A stretch of DNA of 64,000 nt from Christiangramia flava JLT2011 (GTDB taxonomy: Bacteria > Bacteroidota > Bacteroidia > Flavobacteriales > Flavobacteriaceae), in contig NZ_CP016359.1 in the NCBI RefSeq assembly GCF_001951155.1, positions 1,822,001 through 1,886,000 on the forward strand. Reading direction: 5' to 3'. Made by a program: the position numbers and the translations under genes. Position 1 is the first letter of the stretch. Each line of letters begins with the position of its first letter. Below are positions 22,528-36,287 of this stretch, in pieces. Under the pieces are notes generated by a model. That model was not told where the DNA came from, did not search any database, and was given only the letters and a program-made list of their open reading frames with translations.

Positions 22528-22731
22528 TTAATTTGATTTCACTTTATTGACTGTAGATTGTTGATGGGTTTCCTTCTCTTGATCCACGAGCTCATCTTCA
22601 AACAACATGCGTACAGAAGGGGTGTAAACATCGTCGTATTGCCCGTTTTTGACCGATATGATAAAAGCCGCGAAAAAGACCAGTGCTACTATGACACTTA
22701 TCGCCAGTAAGAGGTAAATGATATTCATCAT
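22528..22731 (-). CDS. ccoS: cbb3-type oxidase assembly protein CcoS
   Basis: This 67-residue protein has one N-terminal helix (residues 4-26) followed by the family motif [19 protein letters not shown]. CcoS is needed for cofactor insertion into CcoN. It is the first gene downstream of the palindrome-bearing promoter at 22748-22790. Tandem ATG codons at 22731 and 22728 are both possible starts. Confidence 0.92.
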
Positions 22732-22747: not shown

Positions 22748-22790
22748 TAAAAGTATTGGCCGCCTGGCTGGTAAAAAATGACATTGGTCA
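22748..22790 (-). promoter_or_regulatory. CRP/FNR-type activated promoter of ccoS-ccoNOQP
   Basis: The perfect palindrome TGACATTGGTCA (22779-22790) is followed on the minus strand by 23 nt and then TACTTTTA (22755-22748), one base off the TAnnTTTG -7 consensus. The palindrome centre would lie near -41, the class II activator position. The predicted leader is about 13 nt. It fits entirely in the 70-bp gap after ccoI. Confidence 0.8.
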
Positions 22791-22801
22791 GCTTTCGGGT
22801 T

Positions 22802-25186
22802 TTATACCGATTTTATTTTCCGGGAAATCAGGTTGCTCAGGAACGTGGTAAAAACGACCACGCTAATGGAACTCAATGGCATCAGGATTGCTGCTACCAC
22901 TGGCATTAGGTTGCCACTTATGGCAAATCCCAGCCCTACGAGGTTATAGGCCAGTGAAAGCAGGAAACTCCACTGGATGATCGAGATTCCTCCCTGTGAA
23001 ATTTTCAGAAAACGGCCAAGTTGCTGGTAAGATCTGGCGTCCATGATCCCGTCGCATGCCGGGGAAAACACGTTAATGTCTTCTGAAATCGCGATACCCA
23101 CATCGCTGGCGGCAAGAGCTCCCGCGTCGTTGAGTCCGTCGCCTACCATCATCACTTTTTTACCCTGTTGTTGCAGGCGTTTGACGAATTCCAGTTTTTC
23201 GCCGGGTTTCTGGTTGAAGTGCATCTGGACGTTCTTCGGAAGCATTTCTTTCAGGCGTCGTTCCTCACCCTGGTTATCTCCGGAAAGCAGGATCACTTCA
23301 TAGTTTTTAGATAACTGCTGAAAAAGTGCCGCTGTTCCCTCGCGGTACAGGTTCTGAAAAGTAAAATATCCCTTATATTCCTCATTATTGCTGATGTGGA
23401 CCTGTGTTTTCTGAAAGTTTTCGGTGCTTGACGGCTGGCCAAGCAGGCTGGTAGAACCAATCTTCATATGATTGTTACCCTGCCTGCTTAAAATTCCCTT
23501 TCCGGGGATCTCTTCAAAATCCTCCAGTACTTTGATATGGTGCCGCTTAAGCAAGGCGTACAACGACCGGCTCAGCGGGTGGTTAGACGCCCGGAGGCTG
23601 GAGCTGAGCAGTTCCAGTTCTTCCTCACTCAGGGTTATACCTTCATAGGAGATCTGTTTTTTCCCAGTCGCGGTAATCGTTCCGGTCTTGTCAAAAATTA
23701 TGGTATCGATCCCAGCCATTTTTTCTATGATCGAAGCATTTTTAAGGTAGAGTCGGTTTTTTCCGAAGATGCGAAGCAGATTGCCAAGCGTAAAAGGTGC
23801 GGCCAGGGCAATCGCGCAAGGACAGGCGATGATGAGCACAGCCGTGATTACATTTAAGGCCTGAGCAGAATCGTAAAAAAGCCAGAAAATTCCTGATAAT
23901 ATCGCTATACTGATGACGCTTAGAGTGAACCGCCGACTGATCTGGTCAGTAAGGGTTTTAAAGCTTTTTTCAGTTTTTTTCGTAAAACTTTCATGGCTCC
24001 ATAACTGTGTAAGATAGCTTTGTTTTACTTCTTTGGTTGCCTCGATCTCAATGAGCCCACCCTGCTGCCTGCCGCCTGCGAACAAGTGATCACCTTTTTT
24101 GCGGGATACCGGTTCGGCCTCGCCAGTGACAAAACTGTAATCGATAAGGGCTTCTTCGCTTAAAAGTAAACCATCCATGGGGATGAGTTCGGCGTTGCGA
24201 ATGACAATGCGGTCACCTTTTCGGATCTGGTACACCTGCACCTGCTCTTCTTCAAAACACCCATTTTCGCTACGAAGGCGTGTCACGGCAATGGGAAAAT
24301 ACGATTTGTAATCTCTTTCAAAAGACAGAAACCGATAAGTTTTCTGCTGAAAGAACTTGCCTAGCAGGAGGAAAAAAACGAGTCCGCTTAAACTATCAAA
24401 GAAACCGCTTCCCAAATTCAGAAGAATATCGGTTGAACTTCTTACAAAAAGTACGATGATTCCCAGAGCGATCGGGATATCGATATTGAGCATTTTGGAG
24501 CGGAGCCCTTTGTAGGCCGAGGAAAAATAGTCGCTGGCCGCGTAGAAAACGACCGGAAGTGAGAAAAAGAACATGAGCCACCGAAAGACCGGTTTAAACT
24601 GCTCCAGCCAAAATTCCCGCAGCTCGAAATATTCCGGAAAAGAAAGGAACATGATATTGCCGAACGCGAACCCGGCAACGCCCAACCGGTAAATGAGCTG
24701 GCGATCCACCTTTTCTTTCTTTTTCTCGAAATCGTCCAGGGAGATGTTGGGTTCATATCCCAGGCGTGTGAGCAAAATTACCACTTCGCGCAGGGAAACC
24801 GACTGGTTCCTGAAACTTAACCTGATGGTTTTCCTGGGAAAATCTACCTGTGAACTCTTAATACCGGGCTCTAGTTTTTTCAGGTTTTCCAGAATCCAGA
24901 TGCACGAGCTGCAGTGCATGGAAGGGATCAAAAATGAAACGATGCTGAGGTCCCCGTCCTGGAATTCCAGGAATTTGGCGGCTATTTCAGCATCATCCAG
25001 GAAAGCGAATCGGTTTTTGTTAGTTTTCGGAGAGATCCCGGGAGCCTGTTCCAGCTCATAATAGTAAGAAAGATCATTGGTTTCCAGGATTTCGAAGACC
25101 GTTTTGCAACCGTTGCAGCAAAAATTCTTGTCTTTATAATATAGGTGTTCTTCCTGGCATTCTTCTCCGCAGTGGTAGCAATTCAT
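22802..25186 (-). CDS. ccoI: Copper-translocating P1B-type ATPase for cbb3 oxidase maturation (CcoI)
   Basis: This 794-residue P-type ATPase starts with a Cys-rich metal-binding element (C3, C6, C10, C23, C24, C27). An HMA-like domain with MHCSSC (C92, C95) follows. The membrane metal site is C455-P-C457 and the phosphorylation site is D499 (DKTGT). The Cys-rich extension is typical of CcoI/FixI, which exports copper for the oxidase. It is divergent from yceI and has its own palindrome-bearing promoter. Confidence 0.93.
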   Translation of the reverse strand: MNCYHCGEECQEEHLYYKDKNFCCNGCKTVFEILETNDLSYYYELEQAPGISPKTNKNRFAFLDDAEIAAKFLEFQDGDLSIVSFLIPSMHCSSCIWILENLKKLEPGIKSSQVDFPRKTIRLSFRNQSVSLREVVILLTRLGYEPNISLDDFEKKKEKVDRQLIYRLGVAGFAFGNIMFLSFPEYFELREFWLEQFKPVFRWLMFFFSLPVVFYAASDYFSSAYKGLRSKMLNIDIPIALGIIVLFVRSSTDILLNLGSGFFDSLSGLVFFLLLGKFFQQKTYRFLSFERDYKSYFPIAVTRLRSENGCFEEEQVQVYQIRKGDRIVIRNAELIPMDGLLLSEEALIDYSFVTGEAEPVSRKKGDHLFAGGRQQGGLIEIEATKEVKQSYLTQLWSHESFTKKTEKSFKTLTDQISRRFTLSVISIAILSGIFWLFYDSAQALNVITAVLIIACPCAIALAAPFTLGNLLRIFGKNRLYLKNASIIEKMAGIDTIIFDKTGTITATGKKQISYEGITLSEEELELLSSSLRASNHPLSRSLYALLKRHHIKVLEDFEEIPGKGILSRQGNNHMKIGSTSLLGQPSSTENFQKTQVHISNNEEYKGYFTFQNLYREGTAALFQQLSKNYEVILLSGDNQGEERRLKEMLPKNVQMHFNQKPGEKLEFVKRLQQQGKKVMMVGDGLNDAGALAASDVGIAISEDINVFSPACDGIMDARSYQQLGRFLKISQGGISIIQWSFLLSLAYNLVGLGFAISGNLMPVVAAILMPLSSISVVVFTTFLSNLISRKIKSV

Positions 25187-25211
25187 TTATACACATTTTT
25201 GGAACAGTTTT

Positions 25212-25254
25212 CAAAAATGCGCTCTTTAATCTTTCGGAAAAATGACCATTGTCA
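25212..25254 (-). promoter_or_regulatory. CRP/FNR-type activated promoter of ccoI
   Basis: TGACCATTGTCA (25243-25254) extends to a 14-bp perfect palindrome with flanking A and T. On the minus strand 23 nt separate it from CATTTTTG (25219-25212), one mismatch from the -7 consensus. The predicted leader to ATG 25186 is about 22 nt. Confidence 0.8.
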
Positions 25255-25324
25255 TCTTTTTCAAAATAGCTGGAAACTATTGTAAACACTAGATTTTCAG
25301 AAAAAAGTAAAATGTTTCAAAAGC

Positions 25325-25367
25325 TGATTTTCGTCATAATTTAAGAACCACTCCTGGCCCAATTTTG
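25325..25367 (+). promoter_or_regulatory. CRP/FNR-type activated promoter of yceI
   Basis: TGATTTTCGTCA (25325-25336) is followed after exactly 23 nt by CAATTTTG (25360-25367). Transcription would begin near 25371, so an in-frame ATG at 25370 cannot be the start and the ATG at 25391 is preferred. Confidence 0.78.
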
Positions 25368-25390
25368 TAATGATTTTAAAAGCAATTATT

Positions 25391-25978
25391 ATGAAATTCA
25401 ATGGCACCATGAAATTCCTTAGTCTTAGCCTTCTTGGGCTGGTTTGGAACTTCAACCTTCAGGCACAAACCTACCAGTTAAATAAAAATGCGACCAGCGT
25501 TTTGGTAGAAGGAACCTCCAACATCCACGACTGGCATATCGAAGCCGAAAGCTGTTCTGGTACGATCACGCTGGAGACTGATGAGGGTAAGATCGATGAT
25601 ATCGAAAAACTCCAGTTTAGCGTGGAAGCCGAAAGCCTGAAAAGCGGGAAAAGCGGCATGGATAAGAATACGTATAAGGCGCTAAATACCGGCGATCATA
25701 AGAACATTGTTTTCCGGATGGAAAAAGTGAATTCCATGAAAGAGACTGCGGCAGGAACTTACCTGGTGAAAGCTTCCGGTAAACTGGAAATAGCCGGTGT
25801 GAAGCGGGATACCGAACTGCAGTTCACCCTGAAAACCGCCAGCGACCGTGTGGAGCTGCAAGGCAGTAAAGACATCGATATGACCGCTTATCAAATAGAG
25901 CCACCATCAGCCATGTTCGGCACCATTACGACTGGCAAGATGGTCACCGTTAAATTCAAAACCATATTTAGAAAATAA
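25391..25978 (+). CDS. YceI family periplasmic lipocalin-like protein
   Basis: This 195-residue secreted protein has a signal peptide ending near NLQAQ. A YceI beta-barrel follows (TSVLVEGTSNIHDW, KSGKSGMDKNTYKAL, GKLEIAGVKRDTELQFTL). YceI proteins bind isoprenoid-like lipids in the periplasm. The start at 25391 is chosen from the promoter position. ATG 25409 is a further in-frame option. It is followed 25 bp later by the porin gene, forming an operon under the TGA-N6-TCA promoter. Confidence 0.9.
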   Translation: MKFNGTMKFLSLSLLGLVWNFNLQAQTYQLNKNATSVLVEGTSNIHDWHIEAESCSGTITLETDEGKIDDIEKLQFSVEAESLKSGKSGMDKNTYKALNTGDHKNIVFRMEKVNSMKETAAGTYLVKASGKLEIAGVKRDTELQFTLKTASDRVELQGSKDIDMTAYQIEPPSAMFGTITTGKMVTVKFKTIFRK

Positions 25979-26003
25979 AACTTCAACCTTTAAATCAATA
26001 GTC

Positions 26004-27275
26004 ATGAAAACTTCTATCAAATTATTCAGTGCGATCCTGCTAAGTTTAGCTACGATACCTTTAACTGCGCAGACGCAGAGAGACCTGGACAACTACCGGC
26101 AACCAGACCAGCGCGGAGTCAACGATTTTGAAGCGGTGAAAGATTCCACCACTTCTTATGACGGCGTTCACGTGCGAATTGGAGGAGCTTCCACGCTGCA
26201 GTTCCAGGCTTTGGATCACGAAAATTCCGGTGCCGAGGGCACACCGGTATTACAGGAAATTGGTGATAACTTTAACCTTGCAACTGCCAACCTGGATCTC
26301 GATGTAGTGCTTTACGACGGGGTTCGCATGCACCTGAGAACTTACTTGTCTTCTCAGCACCATACAGAAACCTATGTAAAAGGCGGTTATATCCAGATTG
26401 ATAAGCTGAATTTCATTAGCCAGGGTTTTGCAGAAGATCTGATGAACCACGTTCGGGTGAAAATTGGTCACATGGAAAATAACTATGGTGATGCCCACTT
26501 TCGAAGAACAGATAACGCCATGTCTTTGCACAACCCGTTCATTGGGAACTACCTGATGGATAGTTTTACTACTGAAGTTGGCGCCGAAGTGTACTATTTC
26601 AGCAACGGATGGATCGGGATGTTAGGACTTACCAATGGTAAACTGAACCAGGCCGTAACCAGACCGGAAACCACCAGCCCGTCTTTCCTTGCCAAATTTG
26701 GATATGACGATTATATCAGCGATGATTTCAGGTTCCGTCTAACCGGATCCATTTACCACACCAACCAAACCGGTAGCGCTTACCTGTATAGCGGTGACCG
26801 CGCAGGTTCCAGATATTACAATGTTTTTACCGATGTGGATGGTGCCGGAGACGGTTTCCGAGCCGGTAGGATCAATCCTGATCTTAAAAACGAAATGACC
26901 TCTGTAATGATCAACCCGTTCTTCAAGGTTGGCGGACTCGAATTCTTCGGAATCTATGAAAACGCCAAAGGAAAACGTTCTACGGAAACCGATAGCCGTA
27001 CCTGGAACCAGTATTCAGGAGAATTGATCTACCGTTTTGGAGAAACTGAAGATTTCTACCTCGGCACCCGTTACAACGTGGTAGACGGTACGCTCGTGAG
27101 CGGGGAAGATGTGAGCGTGAACCGCTTCCAGCTTGGAGCCGGATGGTTCATGACCAAAAACATCCTGATGAAAGCCGAATATGTGAACCAGAAATACAAT
27201 GATTATCCCGTAACAGATATTCATAACGACGGAAAGTTCAATGGATTTATGGTTGAAGCAGCCATTGCTTTCTAA
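26004..27275 (+). CDS. Outer-membrane beta-barrel porin-like protein
   Basis: This 423-residue protein has a signal peptide ending near LTAQ and a beta-barrel pattern of alternating aromatic and polar residues. The C-terminal residue is phenylalanine (EAAIAF), as expected for outer-membrane barrels. Segments such as RVKIGHMENNYGDAHFRRTDN resemble phosphate-selective or general porins of the Bacteroidota. The substrate is unknown. It lies 25 bp after yceI and before a terminator. Confidence 0.8.
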   Translation: MKTSIKLFSAILLSLATIPLTAQTQRDLDNYRQPDQRGVNDFEAVKDSTTSYDGVHVRIGGASTLQFQALDHENSGAEGTPVLQEIGDNFNLATANLDLDVVLYDGVRMHLRTYLSSQHHTETYVKGGYIQIDKLNFISQGFAEDLMNHVRVKIGHMENNYGDAHFRRTDNAMSLHNPFIGNYLMDSFTTEVGAEVYYFSNGWIGMLGLTNGKLNQAVTRPETTSPSFLAKFGYDDYISDDFRFRLTGSIYHTNQTGSAYLYSGDRAGSRYYNVFTDVDGAGDGFRAGRINPDLKNEMTSVMINPFFKVGGLEFFGIYENAKGKRSTETDSRTWNQYSGELIYRFGETEDFYLGTRYNVVDGTLVSGEDVSVNRFQLGAGWFMTKNILMKAEYVNQKYNDYPVTDIHNDGKFNGFMVEAAIAF

Positions 27276-27289
27276 AATCGAAGGTTGGG

Positions 27290-27320
27290 AAGGCCTGTTC
27301 GTAAAGGGCAGGCCTTTCTT
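27290..27320 (+). terminator. Intrinsic terminator after the porin gene
   Basis: Stem arms AAGGCCTG (27290-27297) and CAGGCCTT (27309-27316) are followed by TCTT and further T-rich sequence. It ends the yceI-porin transcript and lies before the true start of the next gene. Confidence 0.75.
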
Positions 27321-27356
27321 CTTTCAATAATTTCACACACACCAAAACCTGAAGTC

Positions 27357-27926
27357 ATGAAAAAGCTGCTGCCCATTTTCGCTATTTTCATCCATATGCT
27401 CCTCCTTGCCCAGACCGAAGTGGAATCCACCGCTCTTCGGTTACTGCCTCAAAGCAAACTGATGATCACCGGCAGTACCAATGTGAACACATTTCATTGC
27501 GTTTTTGACACCGAAAAGATCAGCGGCCAGCGGGAAATCCTGTATACGGTAAAAGATCAGTGCATTTTGCTGGACGACCTGGATATTCGCCTGAGGGCTG
27601 CCGCTTTTGACTGCGGAAACCGGCGTATGAACGAGGATTTTTGTGACCTGCTGCAGTCTGATCGCTTTCCAGAGATACGCATCAGTATCCTTAAAATTCA
27701 GCCAATTTCTGAACAATATTGCAGAGCTTTTGTAAAGATCTGCCTGGCGGGTGAACAGCAACAATACGATTTGCCGGTGCTGATCAGCGATTCTCATTAT
27801 CAGGGGAAACTTCGGCTGAACATTAGAGATTTTGGCCTGGAGCCGCCTAAAAAAGCGCTGGGCCTGATCGAGGTAGACGAGGAGATCGAGATCAGTTTTG
27901 ACCTTCAGGTTGATCATTCCATATAA
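27357..27926 (+). CDS. YceI-like secreted protein, divergent
   Basis: This 189-residue protein has a signal peptide (MKKLLPIFAIFIHMLLLAQ). Its weakly YceI-like pattern includes KLMITGSTNVNTFHC near the start and GKLRLNIRDFGLEPPKKALG near the end. It has more cysteines than the YceI protein at 25391, perhaps forming disulfides. An in-frame upstream start at 27285 is rejected because it overlaps the terminator stem. The two YceI-type proteins flank the porin. Confidence 0.75.
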   Translation: MKKLLPIFAIFIHMLLLAQTEVESTALRLLPQSKLMITGSTNVNTFHCVFDTEKISGQREILYTVKDQCILLDDLDIRLRAAAFDCGNRRMNEDFCDLLQSDRFPEIRISILKIQPISEQYCRAFVKICLAGEQQQYDLPVLISDSHYQGKLRLNIRDFGLEPPKKALGLIEVDEEIEISFDLQVDHSI

Positions 27927-27980
27927 CTACCGGAAAATTTTCAAAATTCTCTGAGCGGTAGTACCTTATAAACTAAAAAC

Positions 27981-29258
27981 ATGAAAGAACTAAAAATGGT
28001 AACAGCTCCTGAAGCGGTTTCGGGAGTACAGTCGGGCCAGCGCGTATTCTTCCAGGGTGCCGCCATGACGCCCAATGCGTTAATAGATGCGCTTTGCGAG
28101 AGATACCAGGAACTGGAGAACGTGGAACTCATCCAGATCCATACTGAAGGAAATGCGCTGTATACGCAGGAACCTTATAACGCTTCCTTTAAAACGAACA
28201 GCTGTTTTGTGGGCGGTAATGTTCGCAAGGCCGTCAACTCCAATTTCGGTGCTTATATTCCCATATTCCTGAGTGAGATCCATGTGCTTTTCCGAAGAAA
28301 TATCCTTCCGCTGGATTATGCGTTCATACAGGTGTCGCCGCCAGATAAACACGGGTATTGCTCGCTTGGAGTTTCCGTGGATATTACGCTTCCGGCAATC
28401 CAGAATGCGAAAAAAGTGATCGCACAGGTAAATCCACAGGTGCCGAGAACGCATGGTGACGGGATCATCCACATCAGCCAAATCGATGCGGCGGTGCAGA
28501 TAGATCATCCTATCCATATTCATAACCTGTCGGAACCTACAGAGGTCGAGAAGAAGATCGGCTGGCATGTAGCCGGGCTGATCGAAGACGGTGCCACGCT
28601 GCAAATGGGCATTGGCGGAATCCCGAACGTCGTCCTGAGCAATCTTACCAATCATAAGAGGCTTGGGATTCATACGGAAATGTTTTCTGATGGGGTTCTT
28701 CCGCTCATAGAAAAAGGCGTGATCACCGGCGAGGAAAAACAGGTGAAAACCGGGAAACTGGTGACCTGTTTTGCAGTGGGATCGTCCAAATTGTACGATT
28801 TTATAGATGATAACCCGCTGGTGCATTTCAAGGAAGCGGCCTATACCAATGATACGGCGATCATCCGCAAGAACCCGAAAGTGACCGCGATCAATTCAGC
28901 GATAGAAATTGACCTTACCGGGCAGGTTTGTGCCGATACGATTGGGAAAATGCAGTTTTCAGGTGTGGGCGGCCAGATGGATTTTATTCGCGGTGCTGCG
29001 CTTTCAGATGGCGGAAAACCTATTATCGCCATGCCTGCGCTCACCAATAAAGGCGTTTCCAAGATCGTTCCGTACCTCAAGGAAGGAGCCGGTGTGACCA
29101 CTACCAGGGCCCACGTGCATTACGTCGCGACCGAGTATGGCGTGGTGGATCTCTTCGGAAAAAACCTGAAACAGCGGGCAGAAGCACTTATTTCGATTGC
29201 CCACCCAGATTTCCGCGAGCAGCTTTCCAGGCAGGCCTATGAGCGATTAAATGCCTGA
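27981..29258 (+). CDS. Acetyl-CoA hydrolase/CoA-transferase family protein
   Basis: This 425-residue enzyme belongs to the 4-hydroxybutyrate/acetate CoA-transferase type (Cat1/Cat2-like). It shows the catalytic glutamate in GIHTEMFSDG (E233), the segment GIGGIPNVV before it and the C-terminal YVATEYGVVDLFGK. It moves CoA between acyl groups, or hydrolyses acetyl-CoA, in fermentative or acetate metabolism. The acyl substrate is not clear. The gap upstream holds no TGA-N6-TCA promoter, so control may be separate. Confidence 0.9.
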   Translation: MKELKMVTAPEAVSGVQSGQRVFFQGAAMTPNALIDALCERYQELENVELIQIHTEGNALYTQEPYNASFKTNSCFVGGNVRKAVNSNFGAYIPIFLSEIHVLFRRNILPLDYAFIQVSPPDKHGYCSLGVSVDITLPAIQNAKKVIAQVNPQVPRTHGDGIIHISQIDAAVQIDHPIHIHNLSEPTEVEKKIGWHVAGLIEDGATLQMGIGGIPNVVLSNLTNHKRLGIHTEMFSDGVLPLIEKGVITGEEKQVKTGKLVTCFAVGSSKLYDFIDDNPLVHFKEAAYTNDTAIIRKNPKVTAINSAIEIDLTGQVCADTIGKMQFSGVGGQMDFIRGAALSDGGKPIIAMPALTNKGVSKIVPYLKEGAGVTTTRAHVHYVATEYGVVDLFGKNLKQRAEALISIAHPDFREQLSRQAYERLNA

Positions 29259-29272
29259 AATCCAGCTAAAAC

Positions 29273-29315
29273 TGATGTCGGTCATATTTTCTGAGACAGC
29301 CTCAAACTAATTTTA
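29273..29315 (+). promoter_or_regulatory. CRP/FNR-type activated promoter of the small membrane gene at 29341
   Basis: TGATGTCGGTCA (29273-29284) is followed after exactly 23 nt by TAATTTTA (29308-29315). The site keeps TGA and TCA but has T in place of C at the inner left position. The leader would be about 22 nt. Confidence 0.7.
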
Positions 29316-29340
29316 TGCGATAATCATAAAACGGGAAATC

Positions 29341-29625
29341 ATGACAATCTATCAAAGACAATTAACTGAATTTAGCAGGGATTTTCAGGCGGGAGCCACA
29401 ACCGGGATCATTCTTTCGAGTGGTTTGGGTTCCATTGCCGCCATGCTGGTGCTTATGAACGGTCACGAATTCTACCACATGATCCAACTCGGGCTCATCG
29501 TAGTGGTAGCCATGTGGTACAATGCGGCGGTATTATCACAGTTGTCGCCAAAATTTGTCTTCAATTCGTTAATTCTCAGCCTGGGCGTTAGTAGTATTTT
29601 TATCCTGCTGAACCTGCTCAGCTGA
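29341..29625 (+). CDS. Three-helix membrane protein in the microaerobic regulon
   Basis: This 94-residue protein has hydrophobic segments at about residues 18-38, 46-63 and 72-93, with a polar N-terminus (MTIYQRQLTEFSRDF). No family is recognised. Its promoter has the same site and spacing as ccoS and hemN, and a terminator follows, so it is a stand-alone transcription unit. A role in low-oxygen growth is inferred only from regulation. Confidence 0.75.
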   Translation: MTIYQRQLTEFSRDFQAGATTGIILSSGLGSIAAMLVLMNGHEFYHMIQLGLIVVVAMWYNAAVLSQLSPKFVFNSLILSLGVSSIFILLNLLS

Positions 29626-29649
29626 ACCAGATAAACCAACCAGAGATCG

Positions 29650-29691
29650 AAATCCTTCGGCAGGAGCAGCAGCTTCGCCGGAGGATTTTTT
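29650..29691 (+). terminator. Intrinsic terminator
   Basis: Arms 29650-29661 and 29677-29688 pair over 12 positions with a single G-T wobble, and T residues run from 29686 to 29691. It ends the 29341 transcript. Confidence 0.85.
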
Positions 29692-29773
29692 GTTTTCAGT
29701 ATAAAAAGCAGGAAAATGCACAACCGCTGAAGGAGCGATCAGTTTCCGAAGTATTCAGTAAAAAATTTGGAAA

Positions 29774-30562
29774 TTACCGTGGGTTGTGGAAGACAAAAAT
29801 GGGCAGATGCAGGTCAATATTGGCCGTAATGCCGTGTTTATAATGTAAGAAACGGTCACAAATACTCAGGTTTTTCCCAATGATGAAGATCAGGTCATAA
29901 TCCTGCTGGATCTCGCCGAACCATTCCTCGCTGAAATCACCCTGGTTTTCTTCCACCAAGCTGGTTTCAGTTTGCTGCGGATTGCTAATGAGCACCAGGC
30001 TGCGCTGGTTTTCCTTTAATTTCAAGACCGTGAAATCACTGCGGTGCAGAAAACTGTTCTGGGAAATGATAGTAGGAATTTCTTCTTCCTGTTGCACCGA
30101 ATAATCTATGGGTAGCAGGACTTTTTCAGGAAAACGATAGGTACAATTGGCGGGTATGGCCAAAATATTACACCGGATTTTTCGAACAACCTCATAAGCA
30201 TGGTCGCCCAAAATGGGATGGTGGTGCACTTTATGGCTAATTGCGCCAATGAAGATCAGGTCGATCTTCTTTTCCGTAAGCGCTTTGCGAACCGCGCTGA
30301 TAAGGTTTTCCGAAGAAAGGATGGTGTTGAAATGATGTCTGGGACTGGTGCTGTAAGCCTTCAGTTCGGCGGCACTTTGTTCCAGTTTATGAAGGATCTC
30401 GATGAGTTTCCGGTCAAGGTTCTTCAGCGAGGAACGCTTAAAATCGAAATCCTGGATATTGAGAAAATAGAAATTCGCTTCAGTATCCTGGAGGAAGTCT
30501 ACCGCATAACGGGCCGCGTTGGACGAAACTTCCGAGAAATCGGTTAAAATAAGTACGTTCAT
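29774..30562 (-). CDS. Universal stress protein, tandem UspA domains
   Basis: This 262-residue cytoplasmic protein has a clear first Usp domain (MNVLILTDFSEVSSNAARYAVDFL, residues 1-24, and IDLIFIGAISHK, near 100). The second domain is more degenerate (KVLLPIDYSV). The glycine-rich ATP-binding GxxG pattern is only partly kept. Its promoter carries the TGA-N6-TCA element, as does that of the other Usp gene at 33401. Confidence 0.85.
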   Translation of the reverse strand: MNVLILTDFSEVSSNAARYAVDFLQDTEANFYFLNIQDFDFKRSSLKNLDRKLIEILHKLEQSAAELKAYSTSPRHHFNTILSSENLISAVRKALTEKKIDLIFIGAISHKVHHHPILGDHAYEVVRKIRCNILAIPANCTYRFPEKVLLPIDYSVQQEEEIPTIISQNSFLHRSDFTVLKLKENQRSLVLISNPQQTETSLVEENQGDFSEEWFGEIQQDYDLIFIIGKNLSICDRFLHYKHGITANIDLHLPIFVFHNPR

Positions 30563-30581
30563 TCGTTCATTCTTGTCTGAA

Positions 30582-30624
30582 CGAAATTACGCGAATAGGC
30601 AGGCCTTAAAAATGACCAAAATCA
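30582..30624 (-). promoter_or_regulatory. CRP/FNR-type activated promoter of the Usp gene at 29774-30562
   Basis: TGATTTTGGTCA (read on the minus strand, 30624-30613) is followed after exactly 23 nt by TAATTTCG (30589-30582), one mismatch from the -7 consensus. The leader would be about 16 nt. Confidence 0.75.
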
Positions 30625-30646
30625 GTTCTTGCGAATTTTGGATTTT

Positions 30647-31690
30647 TTAGCTGATCTTTTTCAGGGCGTCGGCATTCACAATCTTGATGTTCCTTCCTTC
30701 GATCTCGATAAGCCCTTCTTTTTTAAAATCTGACAGCGTCCTAATGAGGCTTTCCGGGGCCATTCCTGCAACACCGGCGAGATCTGCGCGGGAAATCCGG
30801 ATGCTTTTCAGCGGATGTTTTTCAATGCGCTCCGCAAACAGGAGAATGGTATTGGCCGTTTTCTTCCGAACAGATCCGTAGGCCATATCCATCAACTGCT
30901 GTTTGAGTTCGGAGAGGTTCTTGTTGAGCACTTCGATGAGCTGAAGCGTGATTCTGGGGTTTTGAGAAAGGATGCGGTGAAATTCTTCGCGGGAAACGGC
31001 ATACAATTGCGTCTCCTCCATCGCAGTAGCATAATCTTCGTAGGCGCTCTGACTATTCTTTACCGGGTTGCCGAAAAAATCATCGGTCTTATACAGTTCG
31101 GTGATGAGCTCCTTGCCCTGGTTGTCCATTCGATGTGCCTTTACCACGCCTTTTTTGACAAGGTAGAAGTAATTGGACTGTTTGCCTTTTTCGTAGACTG
31201 CTTCTCCTTTTTTATAATCGAGCAATGCCTGGTCCCGGAAGGTTTCCCGAAGGTCATCGAGATCGTTCAGCGAAGAACCCGGTTCTGCCTTTTCCGTACG
31301 CTGATCAAAAGATCGCAAAATGGCCACTTTCGCCAGCCTGCTTTCAATGGCGCTCAGCAGATCTTCCTCTTCAAATGGCTTGGTAAGGTAATCGTCTGCC
31401 CCGAGGTCCATCCCTTTGCGAATGTCTTTATGCTCGGTCTTTGCTGAGAGAAAAATGAAAGGGATATTGGCTGTTTTCGGGTTCTGGCTTAATGCTTCCA
31501 GCACGCCGTAGCCATCGGTTTCCGGCATCATGATGTCACAGATGATCAGGTCTGGCAGCACTTCAACCGCCCTGGAAATGCCAAGTTTCCCGTTGGAGGC
31601 AGTGGTCACTTCATAATCTGAAAGTTCCAGTAATTCTGCGGTGTTTTCACGAACCGTGACGTCGTCTTCTATAAGTAGGAGGTGTTTCAT
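30647..31690 (-). CDS. Response regulator fused to a CRP/FNR-type regulator
   Basis: This 347-residue protein joins an N-terminal receiver domain (phospho-acceptor D52 in ICDIMMPE, K of TKPFEEED) to a cyclic-nucleotide-binding-like barrel (about 145-265) and a C-terminal CRP-type winged helix. The recognition helix reads MAPESLIRTL. It keeps the Glu and Arg that in CRP and FNR contact the TGA half-site. The only cysteine, C51, is in the receiver, so an FNR-like iron-sulfur switch is excluded. It starts 1 bp after the PAS kinase gene. It is the only CRP-family gene in the window and lies in the middle of the seven TGA-N6-TCA promoters. Confidence 0.92.
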   Translation of the reverse strand: MKHLLLIEDDVTVRENTAELLELSDYEVTTASNGKLGISRAVEVLPDLIICDIMMPETDGYGVLEALSQNPKTANIPFIFLSAKTEHKDIRKGMDLGADDYLTKPFEEEDLLSAIESRLAKVAILRSFDQRTEKAEPGSSLNDLDDLRETFRDQALLDYKKGEAVYEKGKQSNYFYLVKKGVVKAHRMDNQGKELITELYKTDDFFGNPVKNSQSAYEDYATAMEETQLYAVSREEFHRILSQNPRITLQLIEVLNKNLSELKQQLMDMAYGSVRKKTANTILLFAERIEKHPLKSIRISRADLAGVAGMAPESLIRTLSDFKKEGLIEIEGRNIKIVNADALKKIS

Positions 31691-31691
31691 C

Positions 31692-32942
31692 TTAAACTTT
31701 TTTTACCGGTAATTCTACCCGGAAGGTCGTTCCCTTATGTTCAATACTCTTAAAACTGATGCTTCCGCCGAGATTTTCCAGGTGCGCCTTGGCAATGTTC
31801 AGCCCAATCCCGGTTCCCTGGTCAAGCAGGGCGTTCTCTGCCCGAAAATAGCGTTCAAAAATGTGTTTTTGATCTTTCTGCGGAATTCCTCTTCCCTGGT
31901 CTTCCACTTCAAAAAGGATGCGGTCACCCTGTACGTTCACCCGAAATTCGATCGTGGTATTTTCCGGGGAATATTTTACGGCATTGCTCAACAGGTTGGA
32001 AAGAATCAGCTCGACGATCTTCTCGTCCTGGTAGAGCAACAGGTCCTGCTGCTCCTTTGGATAAAGCAGTTCCTGGCCGTCTTTGAGCGTGATATTGGCG
32101 TTGTACACCACTTCATTGATCAGTCTTTTCAGGCTGAATTCGATGAATTTATACTGGCCTTTCCCGCTATCCAGTCGTTCGATGGAAAGAAAATCGTTCA
32201 GGATATTGTTCAGGTAATGCACTTTGTTCCTGATGGTCAGCAGGTGTTTCTCCCTTTTTTCCTGTTGTTCTTCTTTTTGATATTTCCCGATAAGCGTAGC
32301 AGAACTCAGGATGCCGCTAAGCGGAGTCTTGAATTCATGCGATACCAGCGAAAGAAATTTGGTTTTGAGATCACTGAGTTCCTTTTCCTTCTGAAGGGCG
32401 TCCTTGATCTTTCGTTCCGCTTCCATCCGGCGTTTGACTTCGCTTTCCAGGTCCAGATTGGCAGTTTTCAGCTTCTCCACGCTTTCACTGAGCTCTGAAG
32501 TCCGGATCCTGATCTTCTCTTCCAGCTGGGTATTGAGTTCCTTGATTTGCCGCTGCGTTTCCAGCCTGATGCTGATATCGATCACCAGCGACATCACGAA
32601 TTTCTCGCCCTCTATTTCAAAAGGGTTCAGTCCTGCTTCCACCGGGAACAGCGAACCGTCTTTTTTTACGCCGTACAATTCCCGGCCGTGGCCCATTTGC
32701 CGTTTCTCACTGTTCTCAATAAAATGATCTACGTGGCGATGGTGGGAATGGTGGTATTTCTTAGGTACCAGCACGTCGAGATCCTTGCCCAGCAATTCGG
32801 TTTTTTCATAGCCGAACATCTTTGCTGCCGCGGTGTTGGTGGCCACTACCTTTTGACTGGAATTGACCACGATGATCCCTTCAGAAGCCGCTTCGAACAG
32901 GATGTTGAAAATGTCTTTGTTCTGCTGGAGACTTTCGTTCAA
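31692..32942 (-). CDS. PAS-domain sensor histidine kinase
   Basis: This 416-residue cytoplasmic kinase has an N-terminal PAS domain (about residues 8-125), a coiled coil (130-195), the phospho-acceptor H202 (SLVSHEFKTPLSG) and a HATPase domain (EDQGRGIPQKD, DQGTGIGLNIAKAHLE). There are no transmembrane segments, so it senses an internal signal. The PAS segment is rich in His (YHHSHHRHVDH) and could bind heme or metal, though this is unproven. The start is TTG at 32942, since no in-frame ATG precedes the PAS domain. It partners the receiver-CRP protein 1 bp downstream. Confidence 0.9.
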   Translation of the reverse strand: MNESLQQNKDIFNILFEAASEGIIVVNSSQKVVATNTAAAKMFGYEKTELLGKDLDVLVPKKYHHSHHRHVDHFIENSEKRQMGHGRELYGVKKDGSLFPVEAGLNPFEIEGEKFVMSLVIDISIRLETQRQIKELNTQLEEKIRIRTSELSESVEKLKTANLDLESEVKRRMEAERKIKDALQKEKELSDLKTKFLSLVSHEFKTPLSGILSSATLIGKYQKEEQQEKREKHLLTIRNKVHYLNNILNDFLSIERLDSGKGQYKFIEFSLKRLINEVVYNANITLKDGQELLYPKEQQDLLLYQDEKIVELILSNLLSNAVKYSPENTTIEFRVNVQGDRILFEVEDQGRGIPQKDQKHIFERYFRAENALLDQGTGIGLNIAKAHLENLGGSISFKSIEHKGTTFRVELPVKKV

Positions 32943-33042
32943 GTTTTCTGATTTTTGATTGTTACGCCCTTTTCGGAAAGGCGAATTAAAGTTAAAAACA
33001 TTTTCAGAAATTTTCGAAAGTCAGCTAAAAAACCTTCCGAAT

Positions 33043-33258
33043 TCAAGGTGAGGGATGATCTTCGTAAAAATCATCGAAAGTTTTACTGCCGGTATAGGGT
33101 TCCCGGAGCACGCGATAGACGGCGATTAGTAAACAGGCCTGGCCCGATAGCATGGTGAAAAATGCCAGCGGAAAGGCGCCTCCAAAATACGCGAGGATCG
33201 TTAGCGCGACCAGCAACGCACTGGAAACAGCCAGCCAGAATGTGCCTCCAAATTTCAT
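33043..33258 (-). CDS. Small two-helix membrane protein
   Basis: This 71-residue protein has hydrophobic segments at about residues 6-28 and 31-49, and an acidic C-terminus (KTFDDFYEDHPSP). No family is recognised. It is divergent from the Usp gene at 33401. The palindrome between them has the required 23-nt spacing only in the Usp direction. Confidence 0.65.
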   Translation of the reverse strand: MKFGGTFWLAVSSALLVALTILAYFGGAFPLAFFTMLSGQACLLIAVYRVLREPYTGSKTFDDFYEDHPSP

Positions 33259-33339
33259 TTTTTCCTTTCAAGGTACGCATAAATTCCATGAAGCTGTTTT
33301 AAGGAAATTCTAAAACTCCTGGCTGAAAATGGGGTTTAC

Positions 33340-33382
33340 TGACACCCGTCATATTTTACCACGAGCTATTCGGGTAATTTTA
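33340..33382 (+). promoter_or_regulatory. CRP/FNR-type activated promoter of the Usp-thioredoxin-like operon
   Basis: TGACACCCGTCA (33340-33351), with a perfect TGAC/GTCA core, is followed after exactly 23 nt by TAATTTTA (33375-33382). Transcription would begin near 33386, which rules out an upstream in-frame ATG at 33329 as the gene start. Confidence 0.8.
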
Positions 33383-33400
33383 GGTATAAAACTTTCAACC

Positions 33401-34240
33401 ATGAAAAGAATACTTGTACCCGTCGATTTTTCTGATTATTCAGAATATGCATTACAGGTGGCTGCCGAGATCGCGCACCTCGAAAATGCTGAAATTGTGG
33501 TAGTTCATATGCTCGGGCTCTCCGATGCGGTTTTCACCAAATCTGAAACCGAAGAAGTCTTTGATGTGCTTCATTACATGGAACTTACACATAAGAAATT
33601 TGAAAGCTTCCTGAAAAAGGAGTATCTGGAAGGCATTGAAGTGCACGTGACCGTGCGCAATTACCGAAAATTCCACGAACTGAACGAGGTGGCAGCCGAG
33701 TGGCAGGCAGACCTTATTGTCATGGGCTCACACGGACTTTCCGGGATAGGTGATGTGTTCGTAGGCTCTAATACCGAAAAGGTGATCCGCAGTTCCGAAG
33801 TTCCGGTGCTGGTAGTCAAAAAAAGAGAAAAAGATTTCCAGATTCGCCAGGCAGTTTTCGTGACCGATTTCAACGAGGAATCTGTTCAGCCTTATAAAGA
33901 CATTCGCCGCTTCCTGAAATTGTTTGGCTGCGAACCCAGGCTGTTGCATGTGAATTTGCCGGAGAAATTTTCCAGTACCTCAGAGATCCTGGCCAAATCT
34001 TCGCGTTTCATTCAAAATGCTGAAGTAGACAATCCGGAGATATTTGATATGGTGGATCTCATTAGCGATTACACCCTGGAGAGCGGTATCTTCAATTATA
34101 CTGCTGAACGGGATGTGGACCTTTTGATCGTTCCCACTCACGGTCGTAAAGGGCTGGCTCATTTCTTCTACGGAAGCGCGGGAGAAAGCATTGCCAATCA
34201 TTCCACAGTTCCGGTGATGACCATGAAAATTCCGAATTAA
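33401..34240 (+). CDS. Universal stress protein, tandem UspA domains
   Basis: This 279-residue protein has two Usp domains. The first begins MKRILVPVDFSDYSEYALQVAAEIA and has the ATP-binding pattern GSHGLSGIGDVFVGSNTEKVIRSS split over residues 108-131. The second ends with VPTHGRKGLAHFFYGSAGESI. Both domains keep G-rich nucleotide-binding loops, unlike the protein at 29774. The start at 33401 follows from the promoter position. It lies 12 bp before the thioredoxin-like gene. Confidence 0.92.
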   Translation: MKRILVPVDFSDYSEYALQVAAEIAHLENAEIVVVHMLGLSDAVFTKSETEEVFDVLHYMELTHKKFESFLKKEYLEGIEVHVTVRNYRKFHELNEVAAEWQADLIVMGSHGLSGIGDVFVGSNTEKVIRSSEVPVLVVKKREKDFQIRQAVFVTDFNEESVQPYKDIRRFLKLFGCEPRLLHVNLPEKFSSTSEILAKSSRFIQNAEVDNPEIFDMVDLISDYTLESGIFNYTAERDVDLLIVPTHGRKGLAHFFYGSAGESIANHSTVPVMTMKIPN

Positions 34241-34252
34241 AAAACTTAAATT

Positions 34253-34867
34253 ATGAAGGCCTTGCTGGAAAAAAGCCTGCAAAAGGCAATAAATTACAGA
34301 GAATACCGGCAGCTGGTGGAGCGACTTATTCTTACCACCAGCACCACCGGTGAATGGACCCAAAACCGGGTAAATGCGACCCGCCTGAATTATACCAGGA
34401 TGAAACGCATGGAACACCTGGTAGACATAACACCTGAAAAAAAGAGTATTTTTCAGGAAGTGGAAGACCGGCAATACTGGTTACTCTTCGCAGAATCCTT
34501 TTGTGATGACGCGGCGCAAACCCTGCCGGTACTCAAAAAGCTCGCTGGGCTTTCTGAAAATATTGAGCTGAAGATCCTGATCATGAATGAAAACCGGGAT
34601 TTGATGAAGCGTTTAGGGAAGGATCAAAAAACCATTCTCCAGCTGCTGATCACCGATGAAGCCCTGAACGTCCTCGCCCAATGGGGGCCAAGGTCCAGAA
34701 TGGCTACGCAAATGGTGAATGAGTACCAAAAGCTGCATGGTAGGGTAGACAACGAGATTAAAAAGCAGCTGCAGGTATTTTATAATCAGGATCTGGGAAA
34801 ACAGATCATCGCTGAAATTGCAGCAATCGAGGTACAGATCGAGGGAGAAATGGCCCTTCACCATTAA
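34253..34867 (+). CDS. Thioredoxin-fold protein with a single active-site cysteine
   Basis: This 204-residue protein resembles a Bacteroidota thioredoxin-like family in which the usual active site is WCGDAAQ. Here it reads ESFCDDAAQTLPVLKKLAG (near residue 81), with a single cysteine and no resolving one. A monothiol redox or thiol-transfer role is possible. It is co-transcribed with the Usp gene and its end overlaps convergent hemN by 4 bp. The family assignment is moderately sure, the function is not. Confidence 0.65.
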   Translation: MKALLEKSLQKAINYREYRQLVERLILTTSTTGEWTQNRVNATRLNYTRMKRMEHLVDITPEKKSIFQEVEDRQYWLLFAESFCDDAAQTLPVLKKLAGLSENIELKILIMNENRDLMKRLGKDQKTILQLLITDEALNVLAQWGPRSRMATQMVNEYQKLHGRVDNEIKKQLQVFYNQDLGKQIIAEIAAIEVQIEGEMALHH

Positions 34868-36228
34868 ACGGTCATTGAAAAAAGCCGTTGTTCGGGTCGG
34901 TTTCTTTTCAGTCTCAAGTCAAAGGCCATGGCGATGTTTCTTACAAAGCCACGGCCTTTTTCTGTGACCTGGATTTTCCGGTCGCTCAGAAAGATCAATC
35001 CGTCGCTTTCCATTTCCGAAAGGCTGTCTAAAATAGCCTGCTCTTCTTCCGCCGAAATTCGGGTATTTTCCAGGTTGGTTTCCAGGTCACACATCAGTTC
35101 CAGGATGTGTTTTCTCAGGCTCTGGTCTTCCTCATTCAGGATATGTCCGCGAAAAACTGGCAAAATTCCCTGGTTCACCAGTGCTTCATATTCTTCCACC
35201 CCTTTGACGTTCTGCCCAAACGCATACCAGCTGTCTCCAATAGCCGAAACGCCCAGCCCCACCATGAGCTGCGTCTTGGAAGAGGTGTAGCCCATAAAAT
35301 TGCGGTGCAGTGTCTTGGAATTCATGGCTTTTGAAAGACTATCAGATTTCAGTGCAAAATGATCCATCCCGATTTCCAGGTATTCATTTGCCAGCAGCAT
35401 TTTTTTCCCGGTTTCATACTGTCGCTTTTTTTCTTCGGCGGAAGGCAGGTCGGTTTCTTTGAATCCACGCTGGCCATTGCCTTTCAGCCAGGGAGTGTGC
35501 GCATAACTGTAAAAAGCAATGCGGTCTGGCCGAAGCTGAATGGTTTGCTCAATGGTCTTTTCAATATGTTCGGTCTTCTGAAAAGGCAGTCCAAAAATCA
35601 GGTCATGCCCTACGGAAATAAAACCAGCCTCCCGCGCCTGAAGGGTCGCTTTCTGCACATTTTCAAAAGGCTGAATACGGTGAATGGCCTGCTGAACGGT
35701 CGCGTTGTAATCCTGGACGCCGTAGCTCACCCTGCTAAAACCCAAACTGGCAAGCGTTTCCAGGTGTGCCATCGTGGTATTGTTAGGATGCCCTTCAAAA
35801 CTAAGTTCCATCCGGCGACCTCGCCTGGCGTTACTAAAAATGCCATCAATAAGTCGCTGGAGATTTTCAGGGGAAAAGAAAGTAGGTGTTCCGCCGCCTA
35901 AATGCAGTTCGCTGATCACCGGTCTTTTGCCGAAAATATCCAAATAAAGTTTCCATTCTTTCAGCAGGCTTTGCAGGTAAGGAACTTCAACCGAGTGTTG
36001 CCGGGTGATCCTTTTGTTGCAGCCGCAGAAAGTACACAGGCTCTCGCAAAACGGCAGATGTATGTAAAGACTGATGCCCTCACTTTCATTGCTTTCGCGG
36101 AAGCTTTTCCGCAGAGAAGCGGTATAGGCTTTTAAGGAAAATGTTTGGTCGTTCCAGTACGGTACGGTTGGATAACTGGTATATCGTGGGCCGGGAACGT
36201 TGTATTTGGAAATCAGGTTTTGGTTCAT
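34864..36228 (-). CDS. hemN: Oxygen-independent coproporphyrinogen III oxidase
   Basis: This 454-residue radical SAM enzyme converts coproporphyrinogen III to protoporphyrinogen IX without oxygen. The cluster motif is C61xxxC65xxC68 followed by G-C70 (FCESLCTFCGC), typical of true HemN rather than HemW. The segment GPRYTSYPTVPYW at the N-terminus also fits HemN. Its promoter carries the same palindrome as the cbb3 genes, so heme supply and oxidase are co-regulated. Confidence 0.94.
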   Translation of the reverse strand: MNQNLISKYNVPGPRYTSYPTVPYWNDQTFSLKAYTASLRKSFRESNESEGISLYIHLPFCESLCTFCGCNKRITRQHSVEVPYLQSLLKEWKLYLDIFGKRPVISELHLGGGTPTFFSPENLQRLIDGIFSNARRGRRMELSFEGHPNNTTMAHLETLASLGFSRVSYGVQDYNATVQQAIHRIQPFENVQKATLQAREAGFISVGHDLIFGLPFQKTEHIEKTIEQTIQLRPDRIAFYSYAHTPWLKGNGQRGFKETDLPSAEEKKRQYETGKKMLLANEYLEIGMDHFALKSDSLSKAMNSKTLHRNFMGYTSSKTQLMVGLGVSAIGDSWYAFGQNVKGVEEYEALVNQGILPVFRGHILNEEDQSLRKHILELMCDLETNLENTRISAEEEQAILDSLSEMESDGLIFLSDRKIQVTEKGRGFVRNIAMAFDLRLKRNRPEQRLFSMTV

Positions 36229-36244
36229 GACAGAAAGATTTCAG

Positions 36245-36287
36245 CAAAAGTACCGGAAGGCCAAAAGCCGAAATATGAGCAATGTCA
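36245..36287 (-). promoter_or_regulatory. CRP/FNR-type activated promoter of hemN
   Basis: TGACATTGCTCA (minus strand 36287-36276) is followed after exactly 23 nt by a perfect -7 element TACTTTTG (36252-36245). The leader would be about 13 nt. This is the best -7 match of the seven related promoters. Confidence 0.82.

Follow-up and report, generated by a model that had tools for sequence, protein, structure and literature searches.

We analyzed a 64,000-nucleotide (nt) stretch of the Christiangramia flava JLT2011 chromosome (contig NZ_CP016359.1, positions 1,822,001 to 1,886,000), hereafter the window, whose own coordinates are used unless stated otherwise. The window carries the genes of a cbb3-type oxidase, a ccoI-type ATPase, oxygen-independent coproporphyrinogen oxidase, and two universal stress proteins (Usp), together with a response regulator that joins a receiver to a CRP-type protein (REC-CRP) and a PAS histidine kinase. 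Seven composite promoters were observed among these genes. Each consists of a TGA-N6-TCA palindrome and, exactly 23 nt further on along the strand that leads to the gene, an 8-mer with at most one mismatch to TAnnTTTG. The preliminary description of this DNA had proposed that these promoters form a low-oxygen regulon. The seven promoters are as follows.

22748..22790, minus strand: composite promoter of ccoS-ccoNO-ccoQ-ccoP, taken as an operon from gene order; TGACCAATGTCA, N23, TACTTTTA
25212..25254, minus strand: composite promoter of ccoI; TGACAATGGTCA, N23, CATTTTTG
25325..25367, plus strand: composite promoter of yceI-porin-yceI2-acetyl-CoA hydrolase, taken as an operon from gene order; TGATTTTCGTCA, N23, CAATTTTG
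29273..29315, plus strand: composite promoter of a small membrane gene; TGATGTCGGTCA, N23, TAATTTTA
30582..30624, minus strand: composite promoter of usp2; TGATTTTGGTCA, N23, TAATTTCG
33340..33382, plus strand: composite promoter of usp1; TGACACCCGTCA, N23, TAATTTTA
36245..36287, minus strand: composite promoter of hemN; TGACATTGCTCA, N23, TACTTTTG (exact match)

All seven palindromes were found at the positions first given for them, and the 8-mer followed at the right distance and on the right strand in 7/7. The palindrome itself is more frequent than the once per 4 kb that had been expected; the window holds 36 copies (72 site-orientations), or about one per 1.8 kb. The spacing, in contrast, is highly uneven. 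A TAnnTTTG-like 8-mer (0-1 mismatch) was present at a gap of 23 nt in 7 of the 72 orientations, which are exactly the seven named sites, compared to 0-2 orientations at each of the other gaps in the range 0-60 (mean, 0.47). The Poisson probability of this excess is ~6e-7, or ~4e-5 when the 61 gaps are allowed for. Twelve alternative palindrome cores in the window gave a count of 0 or 1 at gap 23. Thus, a chance origin of the geometry was ruled out by the gap histogram, by these other cores, and by the reversed-pattern controls described below, in agreement with the original claim about the spacing. The distance from the 8-mer to the start codon was 16-26 nt at the seven promoters, with position 25394 used as the start of yceI and 33401 as that of usp1. 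If transcription starts 5 nt past the 8-mer, the leaders would be ~12-22 nt long, close to the 13-22 nt given before.

A palindrome centred at −41.5 occupies the class II position of CRP/FNR proteins, and activation classically involves such a site next to a degenerate −33 region. CRP/FNR proteins can also repress. In the accessible text on Flavobacterium psychrophilum (PMC9723704), the TAnnTTTG element is assigned to −12 to −5, so that the gap of 23 nt places the palindrome centre here at −41.5, the class II operator geometry that had been suggested near −41. The features of Bacteroidota housekeeping promoters were also present, namely, the TAnnTTTG −7 element with 0-1 mismatch and a T-rich −33 region. 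The alignment of 117 sites of the genus extended the pattern to C-TGA-Y-N4-R-TCAT-W-TTTT, whose T run lies at −33 to −30. T frequency was 87-99% at −33 to −31 and 75% at −30, and the leading C was found in 73%; since these 117 sites were defined as TCAT plus the 8-mer at gap 23 (121 if that T is not demanded), the T after TCA was preselected, but neither the T run nor the leading C was. Binding near −41.5 touches the −33 region, as a repressor might. Nevertheless, repression by the regulator at these promoters is very unlikely, given the activating arrangement and the finding, from the same study, that oxygen limitation raises the expression of the genes for cbb3 and heme synthesis in F. psychrophilum (PMC9723704). 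The promoters are, therefore, more plausibly activated.

The combined pattern was then searched for across the genome, which is one part of the check first proposed. With one mismatch allowed anywhere, the pattern as first described gave 46 matches compared to 26 for the reversed pattern, indicating that it is not specific; this looser pattern also falls inside genes, and one of its five exact matches (genome position 2392292) is intragenic. In contrast, the refined pattern TGAY-N5-TCAT-N22-YAnnTTTR was specific, with 11 exact matches against 1 control. With the open reading frames and start codons adopted here, all 11 are intergenic and lie ahead of a gene start, nine at 14-26 nt and two at 59 and 105 nt. 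Six of them are in the window and five outside; the usp2 site misses the pattern by one base in the 8-mer. When the gap was left variable, 8/20 matches in this genome had a gap of 23 nt, and the remaining 12 were spread over 11 other lengths with at most two each. In genome coordinates, the outside site at 494583 precedes a gene paralogous to the small membrane gene, together with RIC and NorB; that at 2419268 precedes a Usp gene, and that at 3071369 a TonB-like gene, 59 nt away. The remaining two (3362058/3362089) form a divergent pair before genes without a Pfam match, the second being 105 nt from the start. A further site before an Hsp20 gene (3070788) matches the looser pattern with one mismatch. 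The divergent pair (G000:C1:3362058-3362131) is made of a single palindrome with two divergent promoter-like elements, a TAnnTTTG box lying 23 nt off each way.

The genes under the sites are listed below.

20327..22525, minus strand: ccoNO, fused cbb3 oxidase subunits I and II (NCBIfam)
22528..22731, minus strand: ccoS, first gene of the operon (TIGR00847)
22802..25186, minus strand: ccoI-type P-type ATPase, named ccoI from position and domain
25394..25978, plus strand: yceI-domain gene, first of its operon (Pfam)
29341..29625, plus strand: 94-amino-acid membrane-like protein of a family without a name, whose paralogue precedes RIC-NorB at G000:C1:494642
29774..30562, minus strand: usp2, universal stress protein (Pfam)
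33401..34240, plus strand: usp1, universal stress protein (Pfam)
34864..36228, minus strand: hemN, oxygen-independent coproporphyrinogen oxidase (TIGR00538, above cut-off)

Searches of Pfam and NCBIfam gave no match for the 94-amino-acid protein, which shares 52% identity with the paralogue before RIC-NorB. Both copies of this family, that in the window (29341-29625) and that before RIC and NorB (L038, 4643-4927), have a composite site.

Conservation was analyzed in 21 genus-mate loci selected for holding REC-CRP, where genes absent from or cut by the fetched stretch were not counted. A composite site within 45 nt of the gene start, called close below, was found in 96/112 target genes but in 0/146 other genes (ccoNO, ccoQ, ccoP, the porin gene, yceI2, the acetyl-CoA hydrolase gene, the REC-CRP and kinase genes, and orf33043). 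A close site was present before ccoS in 18/18, usp2 in 20/20, the small membrane gene in 13/13, hemN in 12/12, and yceI in 12/13. It preceded ccoI in 11/18; in five of the seven exceptions, ccoI comes directly after usp2 on the same strand, and usp2 has the site. For usp1, the site was close in 10/18 and lay ~100-341 nt upstream in the other eight. Widening the limit to 330 nt added 18/18 ccoNO genes, whose site is that of ccoS, and 1/20 kinase genes. The gap of 23 nt was again prominent, with 121/600 compared to a mean of 5.4 at other gaps. The 22 genus members with REC-CRP hold 4-32 sites per genome, and one of them (G020) keeps REC-CRP and four sites although a search for CcoNO gave no match. 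Taken together, the spacing, the conservation in relatives, the additional genomic members, and the gene content support a coherent low-oxygen regulon as first described, and a regulon of class II geometry is confirmed in this genome.

Next, we analyzed the candidate regulators, which are encoded side by side between usp2 and usp1.

30647..31690, minus strand: REC-CRP response regulator of 347 amino acids with receiver, cNMP-like, and HTH_Crp_2 domains (Pfam), the proposed binder of the sites
31692..32942, minus strand: PAS histidine kinase with a FixL/DosP-like, putatively heme-binding PAS domain (Pfam and alignment), the proposed oxygen sensor

REC-CRP matched PF00027 and PF13545 above cut-off. 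Its receiver residues Asp52 and Lys104 and its helix residues Glu313 and Arg317 were invariant in 32/32 rows, its own included. Glu-x3-Arg residues of the Crp helix-turn-helix read TGA. Among the seven PF13545 matches in the genome, the recognition helix has this motif only in REC-CRP, in a protein linked to the nor genes (L035), and in a weak match (L036). REC-CRP contains one Cys only (51), located in the receiver, and the N-terminal Cys cluster ligands of FNR are absent; a metal cluster of its own is thus unlikely. Because the CRP part lacks Cys, sensing must come from elsewhere, most likely from the kinase. The kinase PAS domain aligned with those of DosP (5e-18) and FixL (5e-17), and the ligand His and the distal Arg were aligned without gaps. 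These residues, His67 and Arg87, which we take to act as heme ligand and distal Arg as in FixL and DosP, were found in 23/23 and 22/23 rows, respectively, its own included. The NCBIfam cut-offs for FixK and FixL were reached by neither REC-CRP nor the kinase, which scored 102 bits against the 850 bits of the FixL equivalog. A 71-amino-acid small protein without a Pfam match (33043-33258) adjoins the kinase; it also occurs near ccoI in locus L170 and in Salinimicrobium (L113).

We consider it probable that the activator here is REC-CRP (30647-31690) acting with the FixL-like kinase, its dimer lying at −41.5. The reader had been suggested to be of CRP/FNR type, which agrees with this assignment; REC-CRP and the kinase, the difference in regulator between lineages, and the members outside the window had not been named. 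In the proposed mechanism, the seven sites would be operators of a CRP/FNR-family activator, with the dimer centred at −41.5 beside the T-rich −33 region as in class II activation. Falling oxygen would lead the adjacent FixL-like heme PAS kinase to phosphorylate REC-CRP, whose phosphorylated dimer would bind TGAY-N4-RTCAT. RNA polymerase would then be recruited to the cbb3 oxidase genes and those that supply its copper, to the genes of oxygen-independent heme synthesis and of nitric oxide (NO) detoxification, and to those encoding Usp and Hsp20 stress proteins. In the genus-mate loci, REC-CRP stays among the sites while the cluster rearranges.

Another CRP/FNR protein could read the sites alone or with REC-CRP, the likeliest being the nor-linked protein of 201 amino acids (G000:C1:493816-494421). 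This protein has a Glu-x3-Arg recognition helix (GLRVETVIR), and its gene is directly followed by a site with this geometry, ahead of the small membrane gene paralogue, RIC, and NorB. However, its gene is unlinked to the window cluster, whereas REC-CRP is linked in the genus-mate loci (chosen by REC-CRP), and the nor operon site (TCATAAAATT) lacks the TWTTTT flank of the others. We therefore regard such a reader as unlikely.

Several observations weigh against the assignment to REC-CRP and the kinase. A genus-mate, G001, keeps five exact sites (L125, L127, L129, L131, and L081), including those of hemN and two Usp genes, without REC-CRP, the kinase, or CcoNO. A search for FNR-like proteins at 1e-12 was negative in this genome, and Glu-x3-Arg is absent from both of its PF13545 proteins. 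The sites of G001 may be relics or may serve another reader, or the assembly of 20 contigs may be incomplete. Stand-alone Glu-x3-Arg proteins were also found in G002, G009, G014, and G021. Because this site also seems to be read by FNR-like proteins elsewhere, its presence does not identify the reader. The REC-CRP and kinase genes themselves had a close site in 0/41 cases among the genus-mate loci, which rules out auto-regulation of the pair through such a site. Finally, distant REC-CRP loci of other Bacteroidota were analyzed, using the best 80 of 586. A kinase-like open reading frame lies directly upstream of REC-CRP in 73 of these best 80 loci, the other seven being without a qualifying upstream frame, and 66 of the 73 kinases have a PAS match, in which the His and Arg are both kept in only 40/66; the ligand His is kept in 63/73 PAS hits of these loci.

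The distribution of regulators was compared across genomes. REC-CRP orthologues (E < 1e-100) were found in 22/24 genus members and in G030 and G034. At a less strict threshold (E 1e-50), REC-CRP occurred in 43/296 genomes of the phylum, its own included, indicating that it is not rare. Outside the genus, a stand-alone FNR-like protein, defined by E < 1e-40 to one of the FNR-like proteins, was found in 20/35 genomes, and in 12 of these it was encoded less than 6 kb from ccoNO; none was found at this threshold in the 24 genus members or in G030. G024 and G034 carry both regulator types. Of 11 FNR-like proteins that were read, nine have CxxC plus two further conserved Cys, and those of G039 and G052 lack CxxC. 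An FNR-like protein with CxxC and the two further Cys was present in 9 of 20 cco loci outside the genus, where one CRP hit was kept per locus and hits starting before residue 120 (L174 and L178) were left out. Two genus members, G014 (L282) and G021 (L281), carry a distant stand-alone CRP/FNR protein with CxxC and Glu-x3-Arg and 33-34% identity to the cco-linked type. The absence of an FNR-like protein from the genus therefore applies at E < 1e-40, and a clear exchange is seen only for the cco-type protein. An origin of REC-CRP from an FNR-like protein that gained a receiver was unsupported, since 11 REC-CRP and 9 FNR-like rows formed separate clades in a 35-row tree, and two distant REC-CRP rows stand apart from both clades. 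Eleven rows of this tree carry the label FNR, but L166 and L177 among them do not belong to the CxxC type.

The operators stay alike across this difference. In the cco loci from outside this genus, most of which are of FNR-like type, the composite site was found before ccoS in 14/19 and before ccoI in 8/13, compared to 1/59 control genes (an acetyl-CoA hydrolase gene), and gap 23 gave 45/368 against a mean of 3.7. Refined sites numbered 477 in 59 genomes, compared to 21 for reversed-pattern controls. Their density was 3.1 per Mb in genomes with REC-CRP only (23 genomes), 2.6 with FNR-like only (18), 5.6 with both (2), and 0.4 with neither (16 genomes, 0-5 sites each), the class of each genome being assigned by hand from search results. 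The difference was significant (Mann-Whitney, 1e-8), with the qualification that it is confounded with genome size and kinship, the genomes with neither regulator being mostly small.

These data bear on a further explanation, in which the sites are inherited FNR-like operators that are only partly used here, and REC-CRP answers to NO, carbon monoxide (CO), redox, or another PAS ligand. The shared geometry at FNR-like loci and the sites kept by G001 without either regulator would agree with it, and both NO and CO can be ligands of heme PAS domains. Unused sites should decay, however, but they are frequent in the 22 genus members with REC-CRP and absent (zero sites) in G022, which lacks REC-CRP, the kinase, the FNR-like protein, and CcoNO. 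This explanation appears marginally less likely than a reading by the nor-linked protein, and we retain REC-CRP with its kinase, and oxygen as the presumed signal.

In the distant REC-CRP loci (best 80 of 586), gap 23 gave 193 compared to ~13 per other gap, in 65/80 loci. Tandem sites were also observed. In the 59 of these loci not titled Flavobacteriaceae, some being untitled metagenome bins, 53 palindrome pairs were spaced exactly 22 bp apart (mean per spacing, 1.1), and gap 45 to the 8-mer gave 99 against a background of 8.4, indicating a second dimer at −63.5. In the remaining 21 loci, of Flavobacteriaceae type, there were two pairs at 22 bp, and gap 45 gave 8 against 4.9; the genus showed no second distal site, with 5 at gap 45 against 5.4. 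Among the 20 cco loci from outside this genus, six (L173, L175-L177, L179, and L180) have a 22-bp pair before ccoS, five of them with the −7 box at gap 23, in genomes without a full-length REC-CRP hit. Since pairs also occur in these cco-type genomes, the second site seems to follow lineage rather than regulator type. Four REC-CRP loci (L115, L185, L188, and L194) contain series of Usp genes, of which several have a composite site themselves; the Usp regulon may thus be larger, as in Arenibacter.

These results raise the idea of a conserved low-oxygen promoter code in Bacteroidota with an exchangeable sensor, an FNR-like protein in many Flavobacteriales and a FixL-like kinase with receiver-CRP in this genus and Salinimicrobium. 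Elsewhere, the code would often be doubled by a second dimer 22 bp upstream (−63.5) under either regulator type, and either the Flavobacteriaceae moved from two dimers to one or the others did the opposite. We give this generalization an even chance, lowered from slightly better than even because two genus members carry a distant CxxC protein and two cco-linked FNR-like proteins lack CxxC.

Bacteroidota are abundant in the sea, soil, and gut, and their sensing of falling oxygen is little described in the literature searched. That literature, which was covered mainly at the level of abstracts and included few subscription papers, yielded among others work on FixLJ and FNR of Alphaproteobacteria, papers on CRP/FNR proteins of P. 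gingivalis, and the map of transcription starts in F. psychrophilum, but nothing on this site or on an oxygen regulator of receiver-CRP type in the phylum. The present analysis yields an operator definition, a testable sensor-regulator pair, and a target list. It also describes a natural experiment, lineages with different regulators having kept the same operators.

Among known systems, HcpR, PgRsp, and CrpPg of Porphyromonas gingivalis belong to the same superfamily and phylum, but the accessible text on them describes no receiver domain and mentions no fixed promoter geometry (PMC12040651). Regulators of FNR/ANR type with an Fe-S cluster share the half-site core, the class II position, and the low-oxygen targets. 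They differ from REC-CRP, whose CRP part is free of Cys; CxxC is also missing from the FNR-like proteins linked to cco in G039 and G052, and an Fe-S cluster is putative throughout. The rhizobial FixL-FixJ-FixK system is similar in its heme PAS kinase, response regulator, CRP/FNR-type protein, and oxidase and heme synthesis targets, and the FixK/FnrN consensus TTGANCNNGATCAANG, as given in the accessible text of PMC4999443, has the same TGA-N6-TCA core. It differs in phylum, in promoter type (TAnnTTTG here), and in the flank of the site. Furthermore, the receiver and CRP-type domains are joined here in one 347-amino-acid protein, and there would, therefore, be no FixJ-to-FixK transcription step.

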